From NCBI GenBank assembly GCA_040754395.1, contig JBFMCL010000004.1, positions 1 through 35,012 of the forward strand: a stretch of 35,012 nucleotides of DNA, read 5' to 3'. Shown here one piece after another: positions 8,747 through 17,057 of this stretch; position 1 is the stretch's first letter, and every line of letters begins with the position of its first letter. The DNA is from Nitrospirota bacterium. GTDB lineage: Bacteria; Nitrospirota; Thermodesulfovibrionia; Thermodesulfovibrionales; SM23-35. The notes below the pieces were generated by a model. That model was not told the origin of the DNA, ran no database searches, and saw only the letters and a program-made list of their open reading frames with translations. Both the position numbers and the translations under genes were made by a program.

Positions 8747-9823
8747 ATGGCACTGTTTAATTACGCAACCAAGGAAATCACCATAAAAATTGTATACTAT
8801 GGCCCCGGGCTAAGTGGCAAAACCACCAATCTTCAGTATTTGCATTCCATCTTTGACCCCTCCAAGAGGGGAAAATTGCTTTCACTGGCTACAGAGGCTG
8901 ACAGGACATTGTTTTTTGACTTCCTGCCGGTTGAACTTGGAAAGATCCATGATTTTTCCATCAGGTTTCAGCTTTATACAGTTCCCGGTCAGGTCAGGTA
9001 CAATGCAACAAGGAAACTCGTACTCAAAGGTGCAGATGCCATTGTATTTGTGGCAGACTCGCAGCGCGAGATGAGAGAACAGAATATCGAAAGTCTACAG
9101 AACATGAATGATAATCTTCTCGCAAACAACATTAATCCAGAGGACATCCCTGTGGTGCTTCAATACAACAAAAGGGATCTCTCGAACATTCTTTCAGTAC
9201 AGGAAATGAACGGGTATCTTAATGAGAACAATAAATATGACTTCAGGGAAGCGATCGCTATCAGCGGTGACGGAGTCGAGGATACCTTTCAGCATATAAC
9301 CCGTCTGGTTATCGAGGGCATATCAAGAAAACACAAGATCGTGGTGCAATCAGCAAAAGATGTATCGGAACCTGAACGGAAAGAAAAGAAACCCGAAGAA
9401 CAGGTCACTGCAAAAGAGCCACGCAAAAAACCCGATGCTGCATCCCCGATTTTTCAGACAACACGATATGAAGACAGGGAAATAGAGGTTCAGGAGCGCC
9501 AATATGATTTATCGGAATCTGCACCTGAGACCATTCAACAGTTTGTCTATGAAGAAACTTCCCGCCCTGAAGAAGCATTGGCAAAAGAAGTCAAGGAAGA
9601 CAAGGAGATACCTGCAATATCTGAAGCAAAACTTGATGCTTTGGTCAATGGGGTTGCCGAAATATCGCTCATGATAAAGGAGCTAAGCAGTGCCCTTTCG
9701 CAGATTCAGAATGAAATGAAGGATTTCAAAAAAGAACAGAGAGAGACCAATGGTCTGCTCAGGGAGCTTTTAGGAAGTCTCGAAAACATCAAAGTAAAAA
9801 AAAGATGGTTCCGTTTTTCCTGA
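8747..9823 (+). CDS. mglA: MglA-type small GTPase with long C-terminal extension
   Basis: Ras-like GTPase of the bacterial MglA polarity family. The P-loop is GPGLSGKTT (19-27). The family-typical TVPG (78-81) replaces the usual DxxG, and NKRDL (141-145) gives guanine specificity. In Myxococcus and Thermus, MglA sets cell polarity and controls type IV pili or gliding. The canonical domain ends near residue 200. The remaining 155 residues are charged and probably disordered, followed by a coiled-coil-like helix (about 290-345). This extension is absent from the short myxobacterial protein and may hold partner or regulatory contacts. No MglB (Roadblock) gene is adjacent. Cotranscription with the diguanylate cyclase suggests a functional link to c-di-GMP. 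Confidence 0.88.
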   Translation: MALFNYATKEITIKIVYYGPGLSGKTTNLQYLHSIFDPSKRGKLLSLATEADRTLFFDFLPVELGKIHDFSIRFQLYTVPGQVRYNATRKLVLKGADAIVFVADSQREMREQNIESLQNMNDNLLANNINPEDIPVVLQYNKRDLSNILSVQEMNGYLNENNKYDFREAIAISGDGVEDTFQHITRLVIEGISRKHKIVVQSAKDVSEPERKEKKPEEQVTAKEPRKKPDAASPIFQTTRYEDREIEVQERQYDLSESAPETIQQFVYEETSRPEEALAKEVKEDKEIPAISEAKLDALVNGVAEISLMIKELSSALSQIQNEMKDFKKEQRETNGLLRELLGSLENIKVKKRWFRFS

Positions 9824-9828
9824 TCAGA

Positions 9829-11328
9829 TCAGATCTTCTCCAGTGACTTGATCAGCGCTTCTGCCTTTTTCAGTGTCTCGTAATACTCTTTCTCAGGATC
9901 CGAATCTGCAACAATTCCCGCGCCTGCCTGCACATAGGCAATATCGTCTTTTATCACGAACGTTCTGATCACGATATTCAGATCCATGTCTCCTGAAAAA
10001 CTGAAATATCCGATGGATCCTGTATAGAATCCGCGCCTGACCGGCTCCAGTTCATCAATAATCTGCATGCATCGGACTTTCGGCACACCTGTTATGGTAC
10101 CACCAGGAAAGGCTGCCTTAACTGCATCATAACAGTCCTTTGATGTTGACAGGGTTCCGAGCACGTTTGAAACAATGTGAATTACATGAGAATAATCCTC
10201 TGTAATCATCAATTCGTCAACTGTCACGGAACCGTATGCAGAGACCCTTCCGAGATCATTCCTCTCAAGGTCTATCAGCATGATATGTTCTGCCCTCTCC
10301 TTCTCGTTCAGCAGCAGTTCTGTACGCATTCTTTCGTCCTCACTCCGGTTTCTGCCCCTTGGTCGTGTACCTGCAATAGGTCTTGTATCGACAGATCTTC
10401 CTCTGACTCTCAGCAGCCTTTCCGGTGATGAACTGACTATTGTGTATTCACCGAAATCACAATAAGCGGCAAATGGAGACGGATTGATCGACCTCAATAT
10501 CCTGTAGAGTTCCCAGGAGTCTCTTCCGTTGAGATACGCCGAAACCCTCTGTGAAAGATTTGCCTGAAATATGTCGCCTGCGGCTATGTATTCCTTCGCC
10601 CTCCGTACAATGTCCATATATACGCGTTTTTTCATCTCATGGACGACATCGATCTTGCGTCCCCGCATAACATGTCTTTCGTAAGATTCATTAGGGTAAA
10701 TATCCGGCTTATGTCTTTTGATCCTTTTGCGCGTGTGATCGATTTCCGCTTCAGCCTCAGCATATTTCTGATTCCAGTCTATTTCTCGATATGATACCGC
10801 CGGATCAATAGCCTCCGGCAGCCCAGGGCATATTATTATCCAGCTCTGCTGCCTGATGTGATCAATAACGATCAATTTGTTAATCATCAGGAAATGCGCA
10901 TCGGGAAAACCGAGATCATCTACGGCCTTTCTCGGAAGATTTTCGAAATAATGTGCAAAATCATACCCCAGGATTCCAACGAATCCTCCCTGAAATGGCC
11001 CGAGATGTGCGTGGGGTATCTGACGATATTTCTTCATCAGCGTTTTTAATATATCCAATGGCTGACGGGATACTATTTCTATATCATGATTCGATTTGAT
11101 CTCTATCAGCCCTTTTTTTATCATGATTTCCATGCATGGATCAAAACCGATGAAAGAATATCGTGCGATTTTTTCAGGACCTTTAATACTTTCCAGGAGA
11201 AAACTCTTTTTGTCTTTGAGCGGTTCATATAATAAATACGGCGGAGAATATGTTATTTCACCGCAAACAGGCACAATGCCCTCATTTCTTGCTTTATCTA
11301 TGAAATCTTTTTGAGAGGGAATTATCAT
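9829..11328 (-). CDS. Anthranilate / aminodeoxychorismate synthase component I (TrpE/PabB family)
   Basis: Chorismate-utilising enzyme that aminates chorismate to anthranilate (tryptophan) or aminodeoxychorismate (folate). The 499-aa protein has the N-terminal domain with LLES (44-47), a tryptophan-site motif of TrpE. The C-terminal chorismate-binding domain has RPIAGTRPRG, LIDLERNDLGR, PGGTITGVPK and IVADSDPEKEY. Signatures are mixed. LLES, PIAGT (Ala rather than the Lys of many PabB) and QAGAGI favour TrpE. GGTITG, GDMDLNIVIRT and the SDPE ending resemble PabB. No glutaminase subunit or other trp/pab gene is adjacent to decide. It converges on mglA with a 5-bp gap. The family is certain; the exact reaction is not. 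Confidence 0.85.
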   Translation of the reverse strand: MIIPSQKDFIDKARNEGIVPVCGEITYSPPYLLYEPLKDKKSFLLESIKGPEKIARYSFIGFDPCMEIMIKKGLIEIKSNHDIEIVSRQPLDILKTLMKKYRQIPHAHLGPFQGGFVGILGYDFAHYFENLPRKAVDDLGFPDAHFLMINKLIVIDHIRQQSWIIICPGLPEAIDPAVSYREIDWNQKYAEAEAEIDHTRKRIKRHKPDIYPNESYERHVMRGRKIDVVHEMKKRVYMDIVRRAKEYIAAGDIFQANLSQRVSAYLNGRDSWELYRILRSINPSPFAAYCDFGEYTIVSSSPERLLRVRGRSVDTRPIAGTRPRGRNRSEDERMRTELLLNEKERAEHIMLIDLERNDLGRVSAYGSVTVDELMITEDYSHVIHIVSNVLGTLSTSKDCYDAVKAAFPGGTITGVPKVRCMQIIDELEPVRRGFYTGSIGYFSFSGDMDLNIVIRTFVIKDDIAYVQAGAGIVADSDPEKEYYETLKKAEALIKSLEKI

Positions 11329-11355
11329 CTCTTACAGGATCTCCCGTAAAAAAAT

Positions 11356-11361
11356 ATTATA
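11356..11361 (-). promoter_or_regulatory. -10 element for the TrpE/PabB gene
   Basis: On the minus strand, a TATAAT hexamer sits in TTGGTATATAATAT, about 28 nt before the ATG at 11328. GGGAG lies between it and the start as a possible ribosome-binding site. No good -35 is seen at the normal distance. Confidence 0.45.
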
Positions 11362-11563
11362 TACCAAACAGCTTTGTCAGATATTACCCTAAAAAACAAT
11401 TCTTTTGCAGAGATGTTATACTCGGAACCTTAATATGTAGTAATTGTACTACATGTAGTTTTCTTGATTATGACACGATACTGTCGTTTTTGACGATATT
11501 ATTTCATAATGGTTTGTGATAATGTGATAGAGACGAGGATAATCATGATGCCGGAGAGAGGAT

Positions 11564-11944
11564 ATGATCAGGCTTGAATGTCCTGCATGCAGAAAAGATT
11601 CTTACAGTGCATCAGTAAGGGACTTCAGACAATGTCCTTACTGCAGAACATTTTTCAGCGGAAAATACGGCATAGAAAAACGACGTGATGCAAGAGTTAG
11701 CAAGGATATCCCGGTTGTGCTCTCCTACCATGAAAAAAACCTCAGCGCGAACCTAGTCGACATTTCTGTCAATGGTGTCAGCATCAGGATTCCAGGCAAT
11801 GAATATCTTCCTGTAGGTGAAATAATACATCTCAATATACGTGATTCATCTGCAGAAGCCCAGGTCAAGTGGATAATAAACAACGACACCCCTTCTGTTA
11901 CCATGGCAGGGTTCAGAATTGTGAACGGTCAATTGAATCCCTGA
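11564..11944 (+). CDS. Zinc-ribbon PilZ domain protein
   Basis: A small 126-aa c-di-GMP receptor candidate. Residues 6-27 hold two CxxC pairs (CPAC and CPYC), a probable zinc ribbon. The PilZ signature follows: an Arg-rich segment EKRRDAR (about 38-44) supplying the RxxxR motif, and DISVNG (66-71) matching [D/N]xSxxG. Both halves needed for c-di-GMP binding are present. The ATG is preceded by GAGAGGA at close spacing. There is no enzymatic domain, so it probably passes c-di-GMP signals to a partner through the zinc ribbon. It converges on another PilZ gene 31 bp away. Confidence 0.8.
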   Translation: MIRLECPACRKDSYSASVRDFRQCPYCRTFFSGKYGIEKRRDARVSKDIPVVLSYHEKNLSANLVDISVNGVSIRIPGNEYLPVGEIIHLNIRDSSAEAQVKWIINNDTPSVTMAGFRIVNGQLNP

Positions 11945-11975
11945 AAAACACACAAAAACAATGCGCGGTGTGTCC

Positions 11976-12281
11976 TTACAACAAGTGCTGCACAAAACGT
12001 GTAAACGCCTTATCTTTTTCAGTAAGTTCGATGCCGGTTCCAAATAGCCAGTTCGCTTCTGTTATCTTTGCATTTCTTTTCACAATTCCCTTGAGAGAGG
12101 CAATCCCTTCACCGGGAAGATAAAGGTCTATTGAAAGCACCTTTTCATTCGGCAGTAGCACACCCCGCACAAACAAGCCGTTGTAGGAAATATCCCCGGT
12201 TATACCCCCACAATAGAAATTTTCTGAATAGATTTTCACCAGCAGCTTCTTCGCAAACCTTCTGTTTTTTCTCAAATCCAT
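11976..12281 (-). CDS. PilZ domain protein, single domain
   Basis: A 101-aa protein consisting almost entirely of a PilZ domain. RKNRR (residues 4-8) gives the RxxxR motif and GDISYNG (29-35) gives DxSxxG, so c-di-GMP binding is expected. The C-terminal FGTGIEL strand is typical of the fold. It converges on the zinc-ribbon PilZ gene at 11564-11944 and lies 130 bp downstream of pyrF on the same strand. No strong ribosome-binding site is seen before ATG 12281. It may be a stand-alone adaptor; the target is unknown. Confidence 0.75.
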   Translation of the reverse strand: MDLRKNRRFAKKLLVKIYSENFYCGGITGDISYNGLFVRGVLLPNEKVLSIDLYLPGEGIASLKGIVKRNAKITEANWLFGTGIELTEKDKAFTRFVQHLL

Positions 12282-12411
12282 GAATTATCTTCAATACCTT
12301 ATAACATGCCGGATTGTGTTTCCTGGCCATGATCCTGTCCCGTACGAAATAGTCTTCTCATGTATTCAGGCATAAACACGTTAAATGTTGCGCAGAATAT
12401 TGTCTCTGTTT

Positions 12412-13131
12412 TCAGGCTGTCAGCATTTCAAGCTCAATCAGTTCTATGGCTTTCCGGGGATCAGGTTGCTGAAAGACCGCACGGCCTAATACGAGGTAAT
12501 CAGCCCCTTGCCTTATCGCATCTTTTGGGGTCACTGTTCTCATTTGGTCATCAGGAGGTGACCATGAGGGTCGTATGCCCGGTGTTATAATGAGAAAATC
12601 TTTCCCGCAACAGTCTCTTATCATCTCAGCCTCTCTGGCGGATGCCACCACCCCGTCAAGCCCGGCATTTAAGGCGAGTGTGGCCAAATGACGCACATGA
12701 GTTCTCAGGCCATGCTGAATTCCGAATTCCTCTCTTAGTGTTTCACGTGAAAGACTTGTTAACACTGTAACACCGAGCATGATTGGCCTCTGGATATTCT
12801 CCTTAAGGCAGAACTCAACAACCTTTCCCCTGCATCGTTGCATCATCTCAAATCCCCCGGATGCATGCACATTAAACATATGTATTCCAAGTGCTGTCAC
12901 GGAAACCGATGCCTTAGAGACGGTATTCGGTATATCATGGAATTTTAGGTCGAGAAAAACTTTTTTCCCTTTGTTATTAATCTCTTCGACAATTTTTGGG
13001 CCGCAGGATGTAAATAATTCAAGTCCTACTTTAAATATATCTATGTAATCCATGAATTTATCTACTATTTCCAAAGCATATCCATGATCTGACAGATCAA
13101 GTGCAAGAATAAGCTTTTTTGTTTTTGACAT
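12412..13131 (-). CDS. pyrF: Orotidine 5'-phosphate decarboxylase
   Basis: Last step of de novo UMP synthesis, decarboxylating OMP in the cytoplasm. The N-terminal LILALDL strand is followed by the catalytic segment FLDLKFHDIPNTV, whose Asp/Lys/Asp residues carry out catalysis. The phosphate-binding end has ITPGIRP and a GADYLVLGRA segment. I chose the ATG at 13131 (MSKTKK, 239 aa) because AAAGGA lies 6-7 nt upstream. A GTG at 13155 would add eight residues and include that site. It lies 31 bp after dcd, so the two pyrimidine genes are probably cotranscribed. Confidence 0.95.
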   Translation of the reverse strand: MSKTKKLILALDLSDHGYALEIVDKFMDYIDIFKVGLELFTSCGPKIVEEINNKGKKVFLDLKFHDIPNTVSKASVSVTALGIHMFNVHASGGFEMMQRCRGKVVEFCLKENIQRPIMLGVTVLTSLSRETLREEFGIQHGLRTHVRHLATLALNAGLDGVVASAREAEMIRDCCGKDFLIITPGIRPSWSPPDDQMRTVTPKDAIRQGADYLVLGRAVFQQPDPRKAIELIELEMLTA

Positions 13132-13162
13132 ACCGCATCCTTTCAGTGATATCACGCGTGAA

Positions 13163-13711
13163 TCACATTTTCGCGAGAGTTATCCCCTTCTGTGACTGGT
13201 ATTTCCCCGCCTTATCAGCATATGATTTTTCGCATACATCCGAAGCCTCCAGAAAGACAAGCTGCGCTATTCCCTCATTCGCATATAATTTTGCGGGAAG
13301 TGGTGAGGTATTGGATATTTCAATTGTCACATACCCTTCCCATTCCGGCTCAAGAGGTGTCACATTTACTATAATGCCACATCTGGCATAGGTAGATTTC
13401 CCAAGACATATTACAAGGACATTCCTTGGGATCCTGAAATATTCTGCAGAACGCCCGAGAACAAATGAATTCGGAGGAATAATGCAGGTCTCTCCCTTGA
13501 AATCAATAAAACTCTCTGTACCAAAATTCTTCGGATCAATGAGAGTTGCAGTAATACAGGAAAGCACCTTGAATTCATCGGAAATCCTCATATCGTAGCC
13601 GTATGAACTTACCCCGTAAGATATGACACCTTTTCTGATCTGTTCTTTGTCAAAAGGGGTAATCATACCCTTTTCTGCCATTTCCTTTATCCATCGGTCA
13701 TTTTTTACCAT
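13163..13711 (-). CDS. dcd: dCTP deaminase
   Basis: Deaminates dCTP to dUTP, feeding dTMP synthesis. The 182-aa protein has the trimeric dUTPase-like fold markers: [11 protein letters not shown] near the middle, then [14 protein letters not shown] with the catalytic Glu, GIAQLVF, and the C-terminal [11 protein letters not shown] closing segment. Whether it also hydrolyses dUTP, as bifunctional Dcd-Dut enzymes do, cannot be told by eye. AAGGAG lies about 10 nt before the ATG. It precedes pyrF by 31 bp on the same strand, giving a small pyrimidine nucleotide unit. Confidence 0.93.
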
Positions 13712-13846
13712 TGAACGGAAACTCCTTCAGGAAATTATTATTTGCTCGGAGATTACCATAAAGACATACTGCATGACAAGCACCCCTGAAGATATGGCCG
13801 ATATCCTGGGCTGAAGACTGAAAAAGACAGGGAATGAATAAAAACG

Positions 13847-14134
13847 CTACTGTTTCTTCTTTGTTGTTCTTTTTTTTGCTTTCTTAGGCAGCTTCTCTCG
13901 TTTTTCTTCTGCTGACAACGCTTCAAGATACTGATTGAAATATCCGAGAGTTTCCTTTGCGACATCCTCCTGCAGCTTCTGAATCGCAAAGCCGGCATGC
14001 ACTATTACATAATCCCCAACATTTACCTCATTCTCAAGCAGCATAAGGCTTATATCGCGCCGAGCGCCATATACATCAATAACAGCCCTCGAATCCTCAA
14101 TGCTGATAATTTTTGATGGTATTGCAAGGCACAT
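13847..14134 (-). CDS. hypC: HypC/HupF-type [NiFe] hydrogenase maturation chaperone
   Basis: Starts with the invariant MCLAIP, whose Cys2 contacts HypD and the hydrogenase large-subunit precursor during Fe(CN)2CO insertion. The small beta-barrel continues to VGDYVIVHAGFAI, followed by the usual helix. At 95 aa it is slightly long because of an extra tail (from about residue 77) very rich in Lys with few acidic residues. A perfect GGAGG lies 9 nt before the ATG. No hypA, B, D, E or F or hydrogenase structural gene is in the window, so this copy is isolated from its usual cluster. Its upstream region holds a TATACT -10 and a 16-bp palindrome. Confidence 0.9.
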   Translation of the reverse strand: MCLAIPSKIISIEDSRAVIDVYGARRDISLMLLENEVNVGDYVIVHAGFAIQKLQEDVAKETLGYFNQYLEALSAEEKREKLPKKAKKRTTKKKQ

Positions 14135-14171
14135 TTCTTTACTCCTCCAGATAAATGGCTTTATTTAATTA

Positions 14172-14196
14172 AGTATATCATATTTATTAATAAATA
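14172..14196 (-). promoter_or_regulatory. hypC promoter -10 with 16-bp palindrome
   Basis: On the minus strand an extended -10 (TGA then TATACT, 14172-14177) lies about 38 nt before the hypC ATG. Just upstream, 14181-14196 is a perfect palindrome TATTTATTAATAAATA covering the spacer and -35 zone. No good -35 hexamer exists there. The palindrome could be an operator for a dimeric regulator, or an AT-rich chance event. Confidence 0.4.
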
Positions 14197-14249
14197 CGTT
14201 TTAGAAAATACAGCGCACTAATCTTTGTATATATCAGCAGGTTTAACTG

Positions 14250-15038
14250 CTATTCGTTGAGATAGCCTTTTATTTCCTCCTCTGCAGTCTGCAAAGCAAA
14301 TTCATCAAAGTATTTTGCTATTGCATCTTCATGTAAAACAATACTTCCGTCATGTTCCCTGTAGTTTTGACTTAAAACGCATTCAAGCTGGTCTTCTCCT
14401 TCTTCCCAATTCCATCCGATGATCTCCTCGATCTCGTCGCCTCTCTGCACATGCCTGAGAGGGAGGAATAACTCCAGATCAAATTTTTTGAAAAGTTTGA
14501 TAAATGCTTCAAGGGAGATGCCTATTTGGTTCACCTTTATCTTGCCGTCGTGGGATTCTCTTTCTCCGCCAATCACGAGTCTGCACCCCAATTTTCTTGC
14601 AAGAGGGATCCTCAGGGCGTGAAAATAGAGATGACAACCGACACAGCTTGAAAAAAAACCATATTTTTTGAACAGATGTGTTGCAGGTCTTCCGCAGAGC
14701 TTCCACCAGAATCCGGGCGAACCCAAAAGAACGGGATCATAGAATCTGACACTTCTCTTTTCCATAACCCTTTTGAGTTCCTCTGTTTTCAAAAAAGGGA
14801 TTTCCCAGTTGCCGTGCTCTGTTCCGGAATATGCGATGGTTGGAAGAATTGCCTTGATAGGCCGCAAATCGCAGGCACGTATGATAGCCGCAATGCTGTC
14901 CCTGCCTGCTATTTCTGCTATGGCGCACTCTGCAGTTTCTTTTATTTCCTCTATTACAGATATCGGAAGCATCCATTCCGGAAGGTCTGTAACCAATTCC
15001 GGTTTGTTCGCCAGCAACTCCAGTATCTTTCTATCCAT
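14250..15038 (-). CDS. PP-loop ATPase-like protein of unknown function
   Basis: I do not recognise a named family. Near residue 45, AEIAGRDSIAAIIRA resembles the SGGxDS P-loop of PP-loop (adenine nucleotide alpha-hydrolase-like) ATPases. In the middle, SSCVGCHLYFHALRIPLARKLG and VIGGERESHDGK look like a Cys-pair/His segment and a nucleotide-loop segment. These fit enzymes that adenylate a substrate, sometimes for sulfur transfer, such as tRNA thiolases or QueC relatives; the assignment is by motif only. At 262 aa it is soluble with no signal peptide. It starts 5 nt after the apgM stop with no visible ribosome-binding site, so it is probably translationally coupled to apgM. The substrate is unknown. 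Confidence 0.6.
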   Translation of the reverse strand: MDRKILELLANKPELVTDLPEWMLPISVIEEIKETAECAIAEIAGRDSIAAIIRACDLRPIKAILPTIAYSGTEHGNWEIPFLKTEELKRVMEKRSVRFYDPVLLGSPGFWWKLCGRPATHLFKKYGFFSSCVGCHLYFHALRIPLARKLGCRLVIGGERESHDGKIKVNQIGISLEAFIKLFKKFDLELFLPLRHVQRGDEIEEIIGWNWEEGEDQLECVLSQNYREHDGSIVLHEDAIAKYFDEFALQTAEEEIKGYLNE

Positions 15039-15043
15039 AAATT

Positions 15044-16342
15044 CTATAATGTCAGCGGTTTGTATTGTCCGGGATAATAAGGCTGGTCAACAGGCGTATC
15101 CATTAACCCGTGCATTTTCCCCCTGTCCAGAAAATTGAGGATAAGATACATCATTTCCTTCCCCTTCACAATGCCCAGGCCACCTCTCGGACAACTTATT
15201 TCATTAAATTCACCGACTTTGTCCTTTCTGACATATTTGCCTACCATCGTCAATGGCACAGTCTCCCCTGTATGTATCATAGTACCGGAGCTTGCGGTTG
15301 AATGATCGGCTGTTATTACGAGAAGGACCTCACTGTCCTTGATTATATCATCGACTGCTATTGACATTGCACGGTCTATAGCCTCTATCACGTCTTTCTT
15401 GTACCAGGGATTCTTCGTATGGCCAGCTTCATCCGGCATCTTTGTGTGAACGTGGATAAAGTCATATTCTAAAGCGTCTCTGGCCAATGAGAGACGGTAC
15501 TTAAGGTCTTCTTCGACGTTTCCTGTATCATTGACCCTGACCGTATCGATCCCCAGTGCACTGCATATCCCCCAGTAAATTGCGCCAGAGGATATCGATA
15601 GCCCACGAAGTCCCCAGGCATCCCTCAATGACATCAATTTCTTCTTTTTCCCCGGTCTCTGCGTTACCAGCGCATTTACCGGAAGGAGATTGGCTTCCAT
15701 ACGTTCTTTGTTGATCGCATGCCCGGAAAGTGTCCTAAAAGACCAGATAAGGTATTCATTCAAAGACTCGGCTGTCTTTTTTGCAGCCAGAGATACTTTC
15801 CTTGTATTCAAAGGCAATACCTCCATGATATCTTTTCCCTCATATACGGGATCTGAATCCGTGATATTTTTCGATACATTGCCGCTCATGACGAGAAACC
15901 CGTGTATGCCTTTTGAATGCACGAGTTTAAACCTGACTCCCTGATCACTGAATGAATGAATCGATTCCATCAGGACCTTTGCTTCTTCATTGGGCATTTC
16001 AGGGCATCCGTACCGTAACATAAGTCTTTTTTCCTTTTCTTCGACAGAACACAGATGGCATAATGCCACGACATCGTTGGCAGACACATTTACTCCCTCC
16101 CCTATTGCCTCAATGATCCCCCTGCCAGGGAAGTCACTTATGTCATACCCAAAAATAACAAAGTGGGCGGTCTCGCTCGACATGGGAATTCCCTGTAAGG
16201 TGCTGTGGTATAGTCCGTTCATACCAAGGGAGGAAAGGTGGTCCAGATTGGGGGTATATGCAGCATGCAATGGTGTCTTTCCTTCAAAGCAATCCTGTCC
16301 GCGATCCCCTAACCCGTCCAATATAATCAAGATGCATCGCAT
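15044..16342 (-). CDS. apgM: Archaeal-type 2,3-bisphosphoglycerate-independent phosphoglycerate mutase
   Basis: Interconverts 3- and 2-phosphoglycerate in glycolysis and gluconeogenesis. It belongs to the alkaline phosphatase superfamily. LIILDGLGDRG opens the protein with the first metal Asp. GKTPLHAAYTPNLDHL follows, then PMSSETAHFVIFGYD with the nucleophilic Ser region, HTKMPDEAGH and TADHSTASSG with the distal metal ligands. The 432-aa length fits the archaeal aPGAM branch rather than the longer bacterial GpmI. The start at 16342 (MRCILIILDG) is preceded by a weak AAGG. It is followed after 5 nt by the PP-loop-like gene. With ppdK elsewhere in the window it fits a lower-glycolytic/gluconeogenic role. 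Confidence 0.88.
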   Translation of the reverse strand: MRCILIILDGLGDRGQDCFEGKTPLHAAYTPNLDHLSSLGMNGLYHSTLQGIPMSSETAHFVIFGYDISDFPGRGIIEAIGEGVNVSANDVVALCHLCSVEEKEKRLMLRYGCPEMPNEEAKVLMESIHSFSDQGVRFKLVHSKGIHGFLVMSGNVSKNITDSDPVYEGKDIMEVLPLNTRKVSLAAKKTAESLNEYLIWSFRTLSGHAINKERMEANLLPVNALVTQRPGKKKKLMSLRDAWGLRGLSISSGAIYWGICSALGIDTVRVNDTGNVEEDLKYRLSLARDALEYDFIHVHTKMPDEAGHTKNPWYKKDVIEAIDRAMSIAVDDIIKDSEVLLVITADHSTASSGTMIHTGETVPLTMVGKYVRKDKVGEFNEISCPRGGLGIVKGKEMMYLILNFLDRGKMHGLMDTPVDQPYYPGQYKPLTL

Positions 16343-16422
16343 TGATATATATACCTTATTATGTCACTTTTCTACTAATAGATATTTAAGATATATTATC
16401 TTATTTGTATTGATAATCTCTA

Positions 16423-16451
16423 TTGGACAATTCCCTGCAGCAGGGAATAAT
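16423..16451 (+). promoter_or_regulatory. Candidate PHP-gene promoter containing an inverted repeat
   Basis: TTGGAC (16423-16428), a 17-bp spacer and AATAAT (16446-16451) end nine bases before the ATG at 16461. The spacer holds a perfect inverted repeat, ATTCCCTG (16430-16437) and CAGGGAAT (16441-16448), around CAG. It could be an operator overlapping the -10, so binding would block polymerase. No Shine-Dalgarno is visible after it. Confidence 0.45.
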
Positions 16452-16460
16452 ATTGTATAT

Positions 16461-17057
16461 ATGTTAATCGATATGCATGTCCATACCAGCTTTTCTCCCT
16501 GCAGCCTGATGCGGATTCCTCAGGTGATAGCAAAGGCGCGCGAGTCGGGAATCGACGGCATTTGCATTACTGACCATGACACGACAGCCTCAGAATACGA
16601 AATGAGGAAAATAGCCTCCAATGAATCCCTCTGTATCATAATAGGCATTGAGTATACGACCTTTCAAGGAGACTTTCTTGTCTTCGGCCCGACAGGCAAT
16701 ATGCCATCAGACATGGATGCAGAAACCCTTTTAGGCTGGGCCAAGAGGTCGGGAGGTATCTGCATCCCGGCTCATCCTTTCCGCAGAAGCAGGCCGGCTG
16801 ATATCAGCATACTCAAGTCCTGCCATGTTATTGAGAGCCTCAATGGCAGAAATCGCAGATCAGAAAACGACACATGCAGAAACTGGCTTAAGGAATATGG
16901 CAATGGCACCATGGAAATCGGAGGCAGTGATGCACATACGCCTAACGAAATAGGACATGTAGTCACGGTATTCAAGAAAAATATTTATAGCGTTGATGAC
17001 CTGGTCAGAGAACTCGCTTCAGGCAGTTTTTCTCCTATGGAAAGGTTTTCCGGGTAA
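16461..17057 (+). CDS. PHP-domain metal-dependent phosphoesterase
   Basis: A 198-aa PHP domain. The first motif is DMHVHTS (D4, H6, H8) and the second is CITDHDT. PAHPFR and GGSDAHTPNEIG supply further metal ligands, so the trinuclear metal site appears complete. Relatives include histidinol phosphatase and 3',5'-nucleotide phosphatases (TrpH/RnaAM-like); the substrate cannot be chosen. The start MLIDMHVHTS is conserved for such proteins. The frame stays open upstream across the divergent apgM start, but I consider that noncoding. It is followed 30 nt later by a possible small ORF and then mutS. Confidence 0.82.
   Translation: MLIDMHVHTSFSPCSLMRIPQVIAKARESGIDGICITDHDTTASEYEMRKIASNESLCIIIGIEYTTFQGDFLVFGPTGNMPSDMDAETLLGWAKRSGGICIPAHPFRRSRPADISILKSCHVIESLNGRNRRSENDTCRNWLKEYGNGTMEIGGSDAHTPNEIGHVVTVFKKNIYSVDDLVRELASGSFSPMERFSG

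Follow-up and report, generated by a model that had tools for sequence, protein, structure and literature searches.

A predicted PP-loop protein and a separate phosphoglycerate mutase paralogue form a co-inherited two-gene unit in several bacterial groups

We report that a protein of 262 amino acids encoded by a Nitrospirota bacterium, here called X, represents a conserved family far beyond chance, and that X and ApgM_X, a paralogue distinct from ordinary archaeal-type phosphoglycerate mutase (apgM) and co-inherited with X, form one unit. X is a new family and X-ApgM_X a new two-gene (perhaps three-gene) module composed of known kinds of enzymes; the family has no Pfam or NCBIfam name and is retained together with its own mutase paralogue in at least five bacterial groups. 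The PP-loop fold in the model of X, its conserved cysteines, the co-inheritance and the separate paralogue status of ApgM_X were all obtained computationally. We consider it somewhat probable that X and ApgM_X are dedicated enzymes of one small-molecule pathway, in which X would be an Fe-S enzyme that inserts sulfur, possibly selenium, into a small phosphorylated substrate.

Locus and distribution of X

The stretch of DNA that was analysed, referred to as the window, comprises 35,012 nucleotides of contig JBFMCL010000004.1 (assembly GCA_040754395.1). The features relevant to the unit are:

14250..15038, minus strand: gene X, PP-loop family protein of 262 aa, proposed sulfur/selenium insertase (ORF, predicted fold, homologues)
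14886..14915, minus strand: EIAGRDSIAA, variant PP-loop motif of X, residues 42-51; E42-S48 and A50 invariant in 29/29 rows
14631..14645, minus strand: C132-x-x-C135-H136 of X, first part of the CXXC-C triad; invariant in 29/29 rows, spacing compared with E. coli TtcA
14544..14570, minus strand: GGERESHDG of X, residues 157-165; G158, R160 and H163 invariant (model secondary structure, TtcA spacing)
14379..14381, minus strand: C220 of X, which completes the proposed CXXC-C triad; invariant in 29/29 rows
15039..15043, minus strand: AATTT, the 5-nt gap from the apgM_X stop to the X start; no Shine-Dalgarno sequence
15044..16342, minus strand: gene apgM_X, 432 aa, dedicated apgM paralogue co-inherited with X (TIGR00306, profile over 176 genomes, residue comparison, model)
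16163..16180, minus strand: SSETAH of ApgM_X, holding the catalytic Ser56 position; S56 nearly invariant in 20 rows
16461..17057, plus strand: PHP phosphoesterase gene of the CehA/McbA family, divergently oriented and probably a third member (PF02811, NF038032)

On the minus strand of the window only AATTT separates the TAG stop of apgM_X from the ATG of X, and no GGAG/GAGG-like element is present upstream of this ATG; the initial annotation, according to which X starts 5 nt after apgM without a ribosome-binding site of its own, was therefore right on both counts. Since X lacks a Shine-Dalgarno sequence and lies 5 nt past apgM_X, it is likely translationally coupled to apgM_X. Downstream of X in the window come hypC and then dcd- and pyrF-like genes (the latter two named by eye); the hypC-like hydrogenase maturation gene, at window positions 13847-14134, is on the same strand, 115 nt from X.

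Neither Pfam nor NCBIfam nor PADLOC yielded a match for X, and the idea that it is a defence gene was dropped in view of the PADLOC result. Searches against PDB sequences gave chance-level matches only, with no thiolase chain at E values up to 10. No mobile-element relatives of X were found in IMG/VR or among PLSDB plasmids, and the nearest viral structures in a structure search were weak QueC-type matches. X was found in 4/198 genomes sampled from the phylum and in 13/176 genomes of the order; the GTDB species collection yielded 30 loci. By record titles, the taxa are Nitrospirae (Thermodesulfovibrionales), Deltaproteobacteria (Desulfohalobiaceae, Desulfonauticus), Synergistales (Acetomicrobium), Dehalococcoidia and Coriobacteriia (Anaerosomatales). 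A profile search of the Coriobacteriia, the class of a hit recorded as Coriobacteriaceae (G326), gave 36 clear X matches in 246 genomes, a further match of 19 bits (G545) having been left out of the original 37. One genome, G128, has a broken second copy of X, which was not counted as a separate gene.

ApgM_X, a paralogue co-inherited with X

The pairing of X with a mutase, noticed in the initial annotation at a single locus, is real and conserved across genomes: X and apgM_X are adjacent on one strand at 31/31 loci (the window and the 30 loci of the GTDB collection). The order apgM_X>X is present at 19 of these, with no more than 36 nt between the matched parts in 18 cases, and the order X>apgM_X at the other 12, with a spacing of 73-1487 nt. 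Moreover, pairwise identities of X and of ApgM_X correlate (r 0.82, 29 loci), and none of 2000 label permutations reached this value. In G128, which was found through a different search than the 30 loci, the apgM_X-X locus is duplicated; one copy (L003) has the PHP gene, an intact X and an ApgM_X reduced to its last 38 residues, while the other (L005) has an intact ApgM_X and an X that is stopped after approximately 84 codons. Given that the two copies have each lost the opposite partner, it seems that neither protein is dispensable, even where the two genes are no longer linked.

When the window apgM was compared with the 176 genomes of the order, the best matches were in 12 genomes (418-989 bits, 53-100% identity), all of them X-positive, and the remaining matches were all ≤143 bits. 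ApgM_X is accordingly present in 12/13 X genomes versus 0/163 other genomes of the order (Fisher 1e-17); in the 13th X genome (G261), a contig begins with X, and a partner gene would fall beyond its edge. Some apgM homologue is present in 174/176 genomes of the order, and the X genomes encode others besides ApgM_X. Two of these others were scanned; the one of the window genome fits PRK04200/TIGR02535 and the one of a relative fits PRK04135. On the basis of this profile over 176 genomes we rejected the notion of a housekeeping apgM with X as a chance neighbour.

The ApgM_X of the window scores 340.8 bits with the TIGR00306 apgM model (cut-off 320), while two others fall below the cut-off (296.3 bits for L030 and 257.9 bits for L036). 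Its predicted structure (pLDDT 91.8) is nearest to the archaeal apgM 2zkt in the PDB (Foldseek E 4e-38), and it retains D9, S56, D304, H308, D346, H347 and H357, i.e. the nucleophile and the metal ligands. The motifs RCN, DRRAGR/DYSSGH, HR and DPH/PPH, which we take to be the phosphoglycerate-binding motifs of the iPGM family, are present in most of 11 aligned apgM paralogues and missing from the ApgM_X of the window. The arginine of the RCN motif is retained in some ApgM_X of Coriobacteriia, and the change of the pocket is therefore not uniform. At position 56, Ser is nearly invariant in 20 rows, with Thr at several Coriobacteriia loci. At L022 (762-2057), ApgM_X has Tyr in place of the metal-binding Asp9 (ILYGIGD), which is either a sequencing error or a sign of an altered enzyme.

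That ApgM_X is a surplus enzyme of glycolysis, with X as an unrelated neighbour, appears extremely improbable. The score of the window protein above the apgM cut-off and the preserved nucleophile and metal ligands would suit such an explanation, but strict co-occurrence, adjacency at 31/31 loci in two gene orders, the reciprocal loss in G128, the lost arginine and histidine motifs and the other apgM homologues in the same genomes all speak against it. The initial annotation had called the partner a glycolytic mutase; this label does not hold for a separate paralogue that lacks the ordinary apgM motifs in genomes with other apgM homologues elsewhere, and for the same reasons a glycolytic intermediate is not expected as substrate. 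The modification or cofactor pathway that had been suggested there is retained. Since the apgM model accepts ApgM_X, automatic annotation would name it a phosphoglycerate mutase of glycolysis, a label that is probably mistaken and would mislead metabolic models.

The PHP gene of the window matches PF02811 (49.3 bits) and NF038032 (82.4 bits, cut-off 80), and a PHP gene is found near the X-apgM_X pair at 21/31 loci. There are two PHP subfamilies, one in Nitrospirota, L022, Synergistota and Desulfonauticus and another in Coriobacteriia. Also recurrent near the pair are TIGR04282/TIGR04283 glycosyltransferases and BioB-like radical SAM, YdjY-domain and VTT membrane proteins, the last also at two Synergistota loci. 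TIGR04282/TIGR04283 (named for arsenosugar biosynthesis in NCBIfam), BioB-like radical SAM and VTT genes were noted at L005 (1847-3322), L016 (604-4729), L017 (244-2684) and L020 (907-7997). A seryl-tRNA synthetase gene occurs at very different distances in the neighbourhood of 11 Coriobacteriia loci (L033-L043, not L031), which probably reflects regional synteny.

Fold, conserved residues and proposed chemistry of X

X had been described as PP-loop-like, and the structure prediction came out as a PP-loop fold and not otherwise; the AF2 model (pLDDT 83.2, built from 12 sequences) supports a Rossmann-like PP-loop fold for X. By Foldseek, the nearest PP-loop family is that of YcfA, a 6-thioguanine thiolase (E 4e-7, Z 20.5, rmsd 2.4, 204/262 residues), and X was not assigned to any unrelated known family in Pfam or NCBIfam. 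ThiI (4-thiouridine synthetase) is the second match (Z 13.9), and further matches include QueC (Z 11.9), MnmA, argininosuccinate synthase, QueH, NcsA, TtuA and LarE (Z 9.7). A shared PP-loop fold is no proof of function. At the sequence level, hhalign of X with E. coli TtcA gave 0.1%, and significant similarity to the TtcA/TtuA/NcsA family was absent. Domain searches matched no THUMP, zinc-finger or other known RNA-binding domain in X; with only 262 aa, near the size of YcfA chains (214-224), X would not accommodate a tRNA-binding domain.

The motifs GRDSIAA, SSCVGCH and GGERESHDG, to which the initial annotation had drawn attention, are all present and are among the most conserved parts of the family. 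Among 29 aligned relatives the residues that never vary are E42-I-A-G-R-D-S48, C132, C135, H136, H140, R143, G158, R160, H163, K168, Q171, R195, Q217, C220, N225 and Y226. Relative to the SGGXDS loop of PP-loop enzymes, the IAGRDS loop of X keeps G, D and S, and the first Ser and the first Gly are substituted. The cysteines of the CXXC-C triad (C132, C135 and C220) are all invariant (29/29 rows), and the GGERESHDG loop, judged by model secondary structure and spacing, follows the fourth strand at the position of the GHxxDD motif of TtcA. Specifically, CXXC, GHHRDD and the third Cys are at 122, 148 and 210 in E. coli TtcA, and the corresponding positions in X are 132, 157 and 220, which gives a distance of 88 from the first to the third cysteine in X and likewise 88 from CXXC to C210 in TtcA. 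For comparison, the [4Fe-4S] ligands given in excerpts of the respective papers are Cys142/145/233 in MmNcsA (distance 91; PMC10067955) and Cys92/95/172 in the Fe-S LarE of T. maritima (distance 80; PMC9283937). A C..C pattern with Gly 20-24 residues further on arose in 200/5000 shuffles of X, and the agreement in spacing between X and TtcA is therefore support and not proof.

Our preferred reading of X as an Fe-S insertase is based on the small-molecule thiolase as nearest fold, the invariant triad, the lack of an RNA-binding domain and a phosphotransferase partner with an altered pocket; counted against it are the lack of sequence similarity to thiolases and AGRDS in place of SGGXDS. According to this proposal, the substrate would be a small phosphorylated compound of nucleotide or sugar type, in which X, with ATP bound in the PP-loop, activates the oxygen of a carbonyl or amide group. 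A [4Fe-4S] cluster would be coordinated by the three invariant cysteines, and its free iron would carry a hydrosulfide (or hydroselenide). The attack of this group on the activated carbon would follow the mechanism proposed for TtuA, NcsA and Fe-S LarE. ApgM_X, a phosphotransferase of the alkaline phosphatase superfamily whose substrate pocket is changed, would make or consume the phosphorylated substrate, which the PHP phosphoesterase may trim. The cluster, the sulfur or selenium chemistry, the donor, the class of substrate and the product of X are all matters that we infer. Should X indeed insert sulfur or selenium, it would give rise to a new thio- or seleno-metabolite.

The cysteines of X, with conserved histidines nearby, could instead bind zinc. 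X would then act as a ligase or amidating enzyme of the PP-loop type, with structural zinc and with chemistry like that of QueC or asparagine synthetase, and would join a substrate made by ApgM_X without sulfur or selenium, an explanation to which we give a minor but appreciable probability. QueC is among the better fold matches, CxxCH...H together with the conserved His163 would suit zinc, and both chemistries use the PP-loop fold; on the other hand, the thiolase YcfA is the closest match by far, followed by ThiI, and the spacing of the X cysteines follows that of the CXXC-C thiolases.

Selenium setting and comparison with known systems

In Coriobacteriia, SelD is present in 36/36 X-positive versus 140/210 X-negative genomes (Fisher 1.8e-6, kinship ignored), with an in-frame TGA in all 34 X-positive rows listed in the SelD search. 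Outside the home order, SelD is over the cut-off in 19/21 X genomes, and the two misses are small assemblies, one with a strong tRNA-Sec (G334, 86.5 bits) and one with YqeB (G317). Within the home order SelD is nearly everywhere (over the cut-off in 150/176 genomes) and is hence uninformative for X. Against the selenium association as a whole counts that SelD and X may both just track anaerobic life.

Genes for SelD, SelB, YedF or a Se/S carrier lie within approximately 9 kb of X at 6/31 loci, in the Nitrospirota order and at L022 only (7/31 if a cysteine-desulfurase-like fragment at L019 is counted). SelB adjoins X at L015 and SelD adjoins X at L017; at L021, X, SelD, the Se/S carrier and YedF all run in one direction, and at L018, SelD, the carrier, YedF, cysteine desulfurase and SelB are near X. 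None of the selenium genes searched for was found near X in the window, and no sulfur donor is fixed in the X-apgM_X pair. As side observations, L018 has a selenium island at 8787-16780 (VTT/Fe-S protein, cysteine desulfurase, YedF, Se/S carrier, SelD, a GCA tRNA-Sec-like gene and SelB), and its genome (G257) has a second SelD over the cut-off. MnmH (tRNA 2-selenouridine synthase) is over the cut-off in 0/34 X genomes and YqeB, of the selenium-dependent molybdenum hydroxylase trait, in 2/34, which argues that X is not an annex of either trait.

It is conceivable, if unlikely, that X-ApgM_X-PHP is an extra route of selenium use, in which the Fe-S PP-loop enzyme would make a seleno-nucleotide or selenosugar cofactor with selenium provided via SelD, YedF and the Se/S carrier. 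Such a route, itself just as unlikely, would stand beside selenocysteine, selenouridine and the molybdenum-hydroxylase cofactor. If true, this would be an added use of selenium that is directly testable in selD organisms.

GCA-anticodon tRNA-Sec-like genes with a long variable arm were seen at L075 (G000:C16:80860-80959), L015 (5248-5337), L017 (7937-8027), L018 (16124-16214) and elsewhere; they occur beside canonical UCA tRNA-Sec, and a SelB gene adjoins them at L015 and L018. They fit the selC* tRNA-Cys described in excerpts of PMC7609411. Pattern matches for such genes were obtained in 57/176 genomes of the order (about six look like chance by eye), namely in 9/13 X-positive and 48/163 X-negative genomes (p 0.005, kinship ignored), and a link of the genes near X (L015, L017 and L018) to recoding of cysteine codons was dropped as not specific to X. 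A link to SepRS-type cysteine coding was also dropped, PMC8762117 making no mention of phosphoglycerate or PP-loop. Shorter GCA tRNA-Sec-like genes of another sequence type are present in a Slackia-labelled MAG (L074, G321:C116:24505-24592) and a Proteobacteria-labelled MAG (L083, G314:C27:12129-12217), and one genome has, alongside canonical and GCA genes, an extra tRNA-Sec-like gene with a CTTCAAA (UCA) loop (L081, 1785-1876; G256:C279).

These genes bear on a further explanation, in which X would replace MnmH by thiolating or selenating a tRNA, perhaps tRNA-Sec or the selC* tRNA-Cys. Many of the fold matches below YcfA are tRNA enzymes, MnmH scores over the cut-off in none of the 34 X genomes (which alone were surveyed for it), and a selC*-like tRNA lies between X and SelB at L015. 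We nevertheless regard this as quite improbable: no RNA-binding domain was matched in X, a phosphomutase partner is hard to explain, and the selC*-like genes of the order are mostly in genomes without X.

No paper connecting a paralogue of apgM with a PP-loop or selenium enzyme, and no description of the pathway, came up in our literature search. The proposed insertase and its partner can be compared with several known proteins. YcfA/TgsB (PDB 9kq7, 9kq6, 9kq9 and 9kqd) resembles X in the PP-loop, in a fold shared over nearly the whole protein, in size and in having no RNA-binding domain, but the two are only 15% identical. The YcfA operons described in parts of PMC7994395 and PMC6225789 encode a PLP enzyme, Nudix proteins and an exporter, whereas X is accompanied by a mutase paralogue; among the X neighbours searched with Pfam there was no Nudix protein, and one class-V aminotransferase was found near X at L018. 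The [4Fe-4S] tRNA thiolases TtcA, TtuA and NcsA share with X the PP-loop fold and the CXXC-C arrangement, with a spacing matching that of TtcA; they have SGGXDS where X has AGRDS, sequence similarity is undetectable (hhalign, TtcA), and zinc fingers are described for TtuA and NcsA in excerpts of PMC10067955, while X has no zinc-finger match. Fe-S LarE, the nickel-pincer nucleotide sulfur insertase, has a PP-loop, CXXC-C and a small phosphorylated substrate, as we propose for X, but it is a weaker fold match and no LarB/LarC-like partner was seen among the X neighbours searched with Pfam. With respect to the partner, archaeal-type apgM (2zkt, 3idd, 3kd8; TIGR00306) has the fold, nucleophile and metal ligands of ApgM_X, which differs in mostly lacking RCN, DRRAGR/DYSSGH, HR and DPH/PPH and in its co-inheritance with X. 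Finally, PhpG (NF038358; a phosphonoformyl transferase by its NCBIfam name) provides a precedent for an apgM relative with another substrate, although ApgM_X scores 182.7 with that model against a cut-off of 545.
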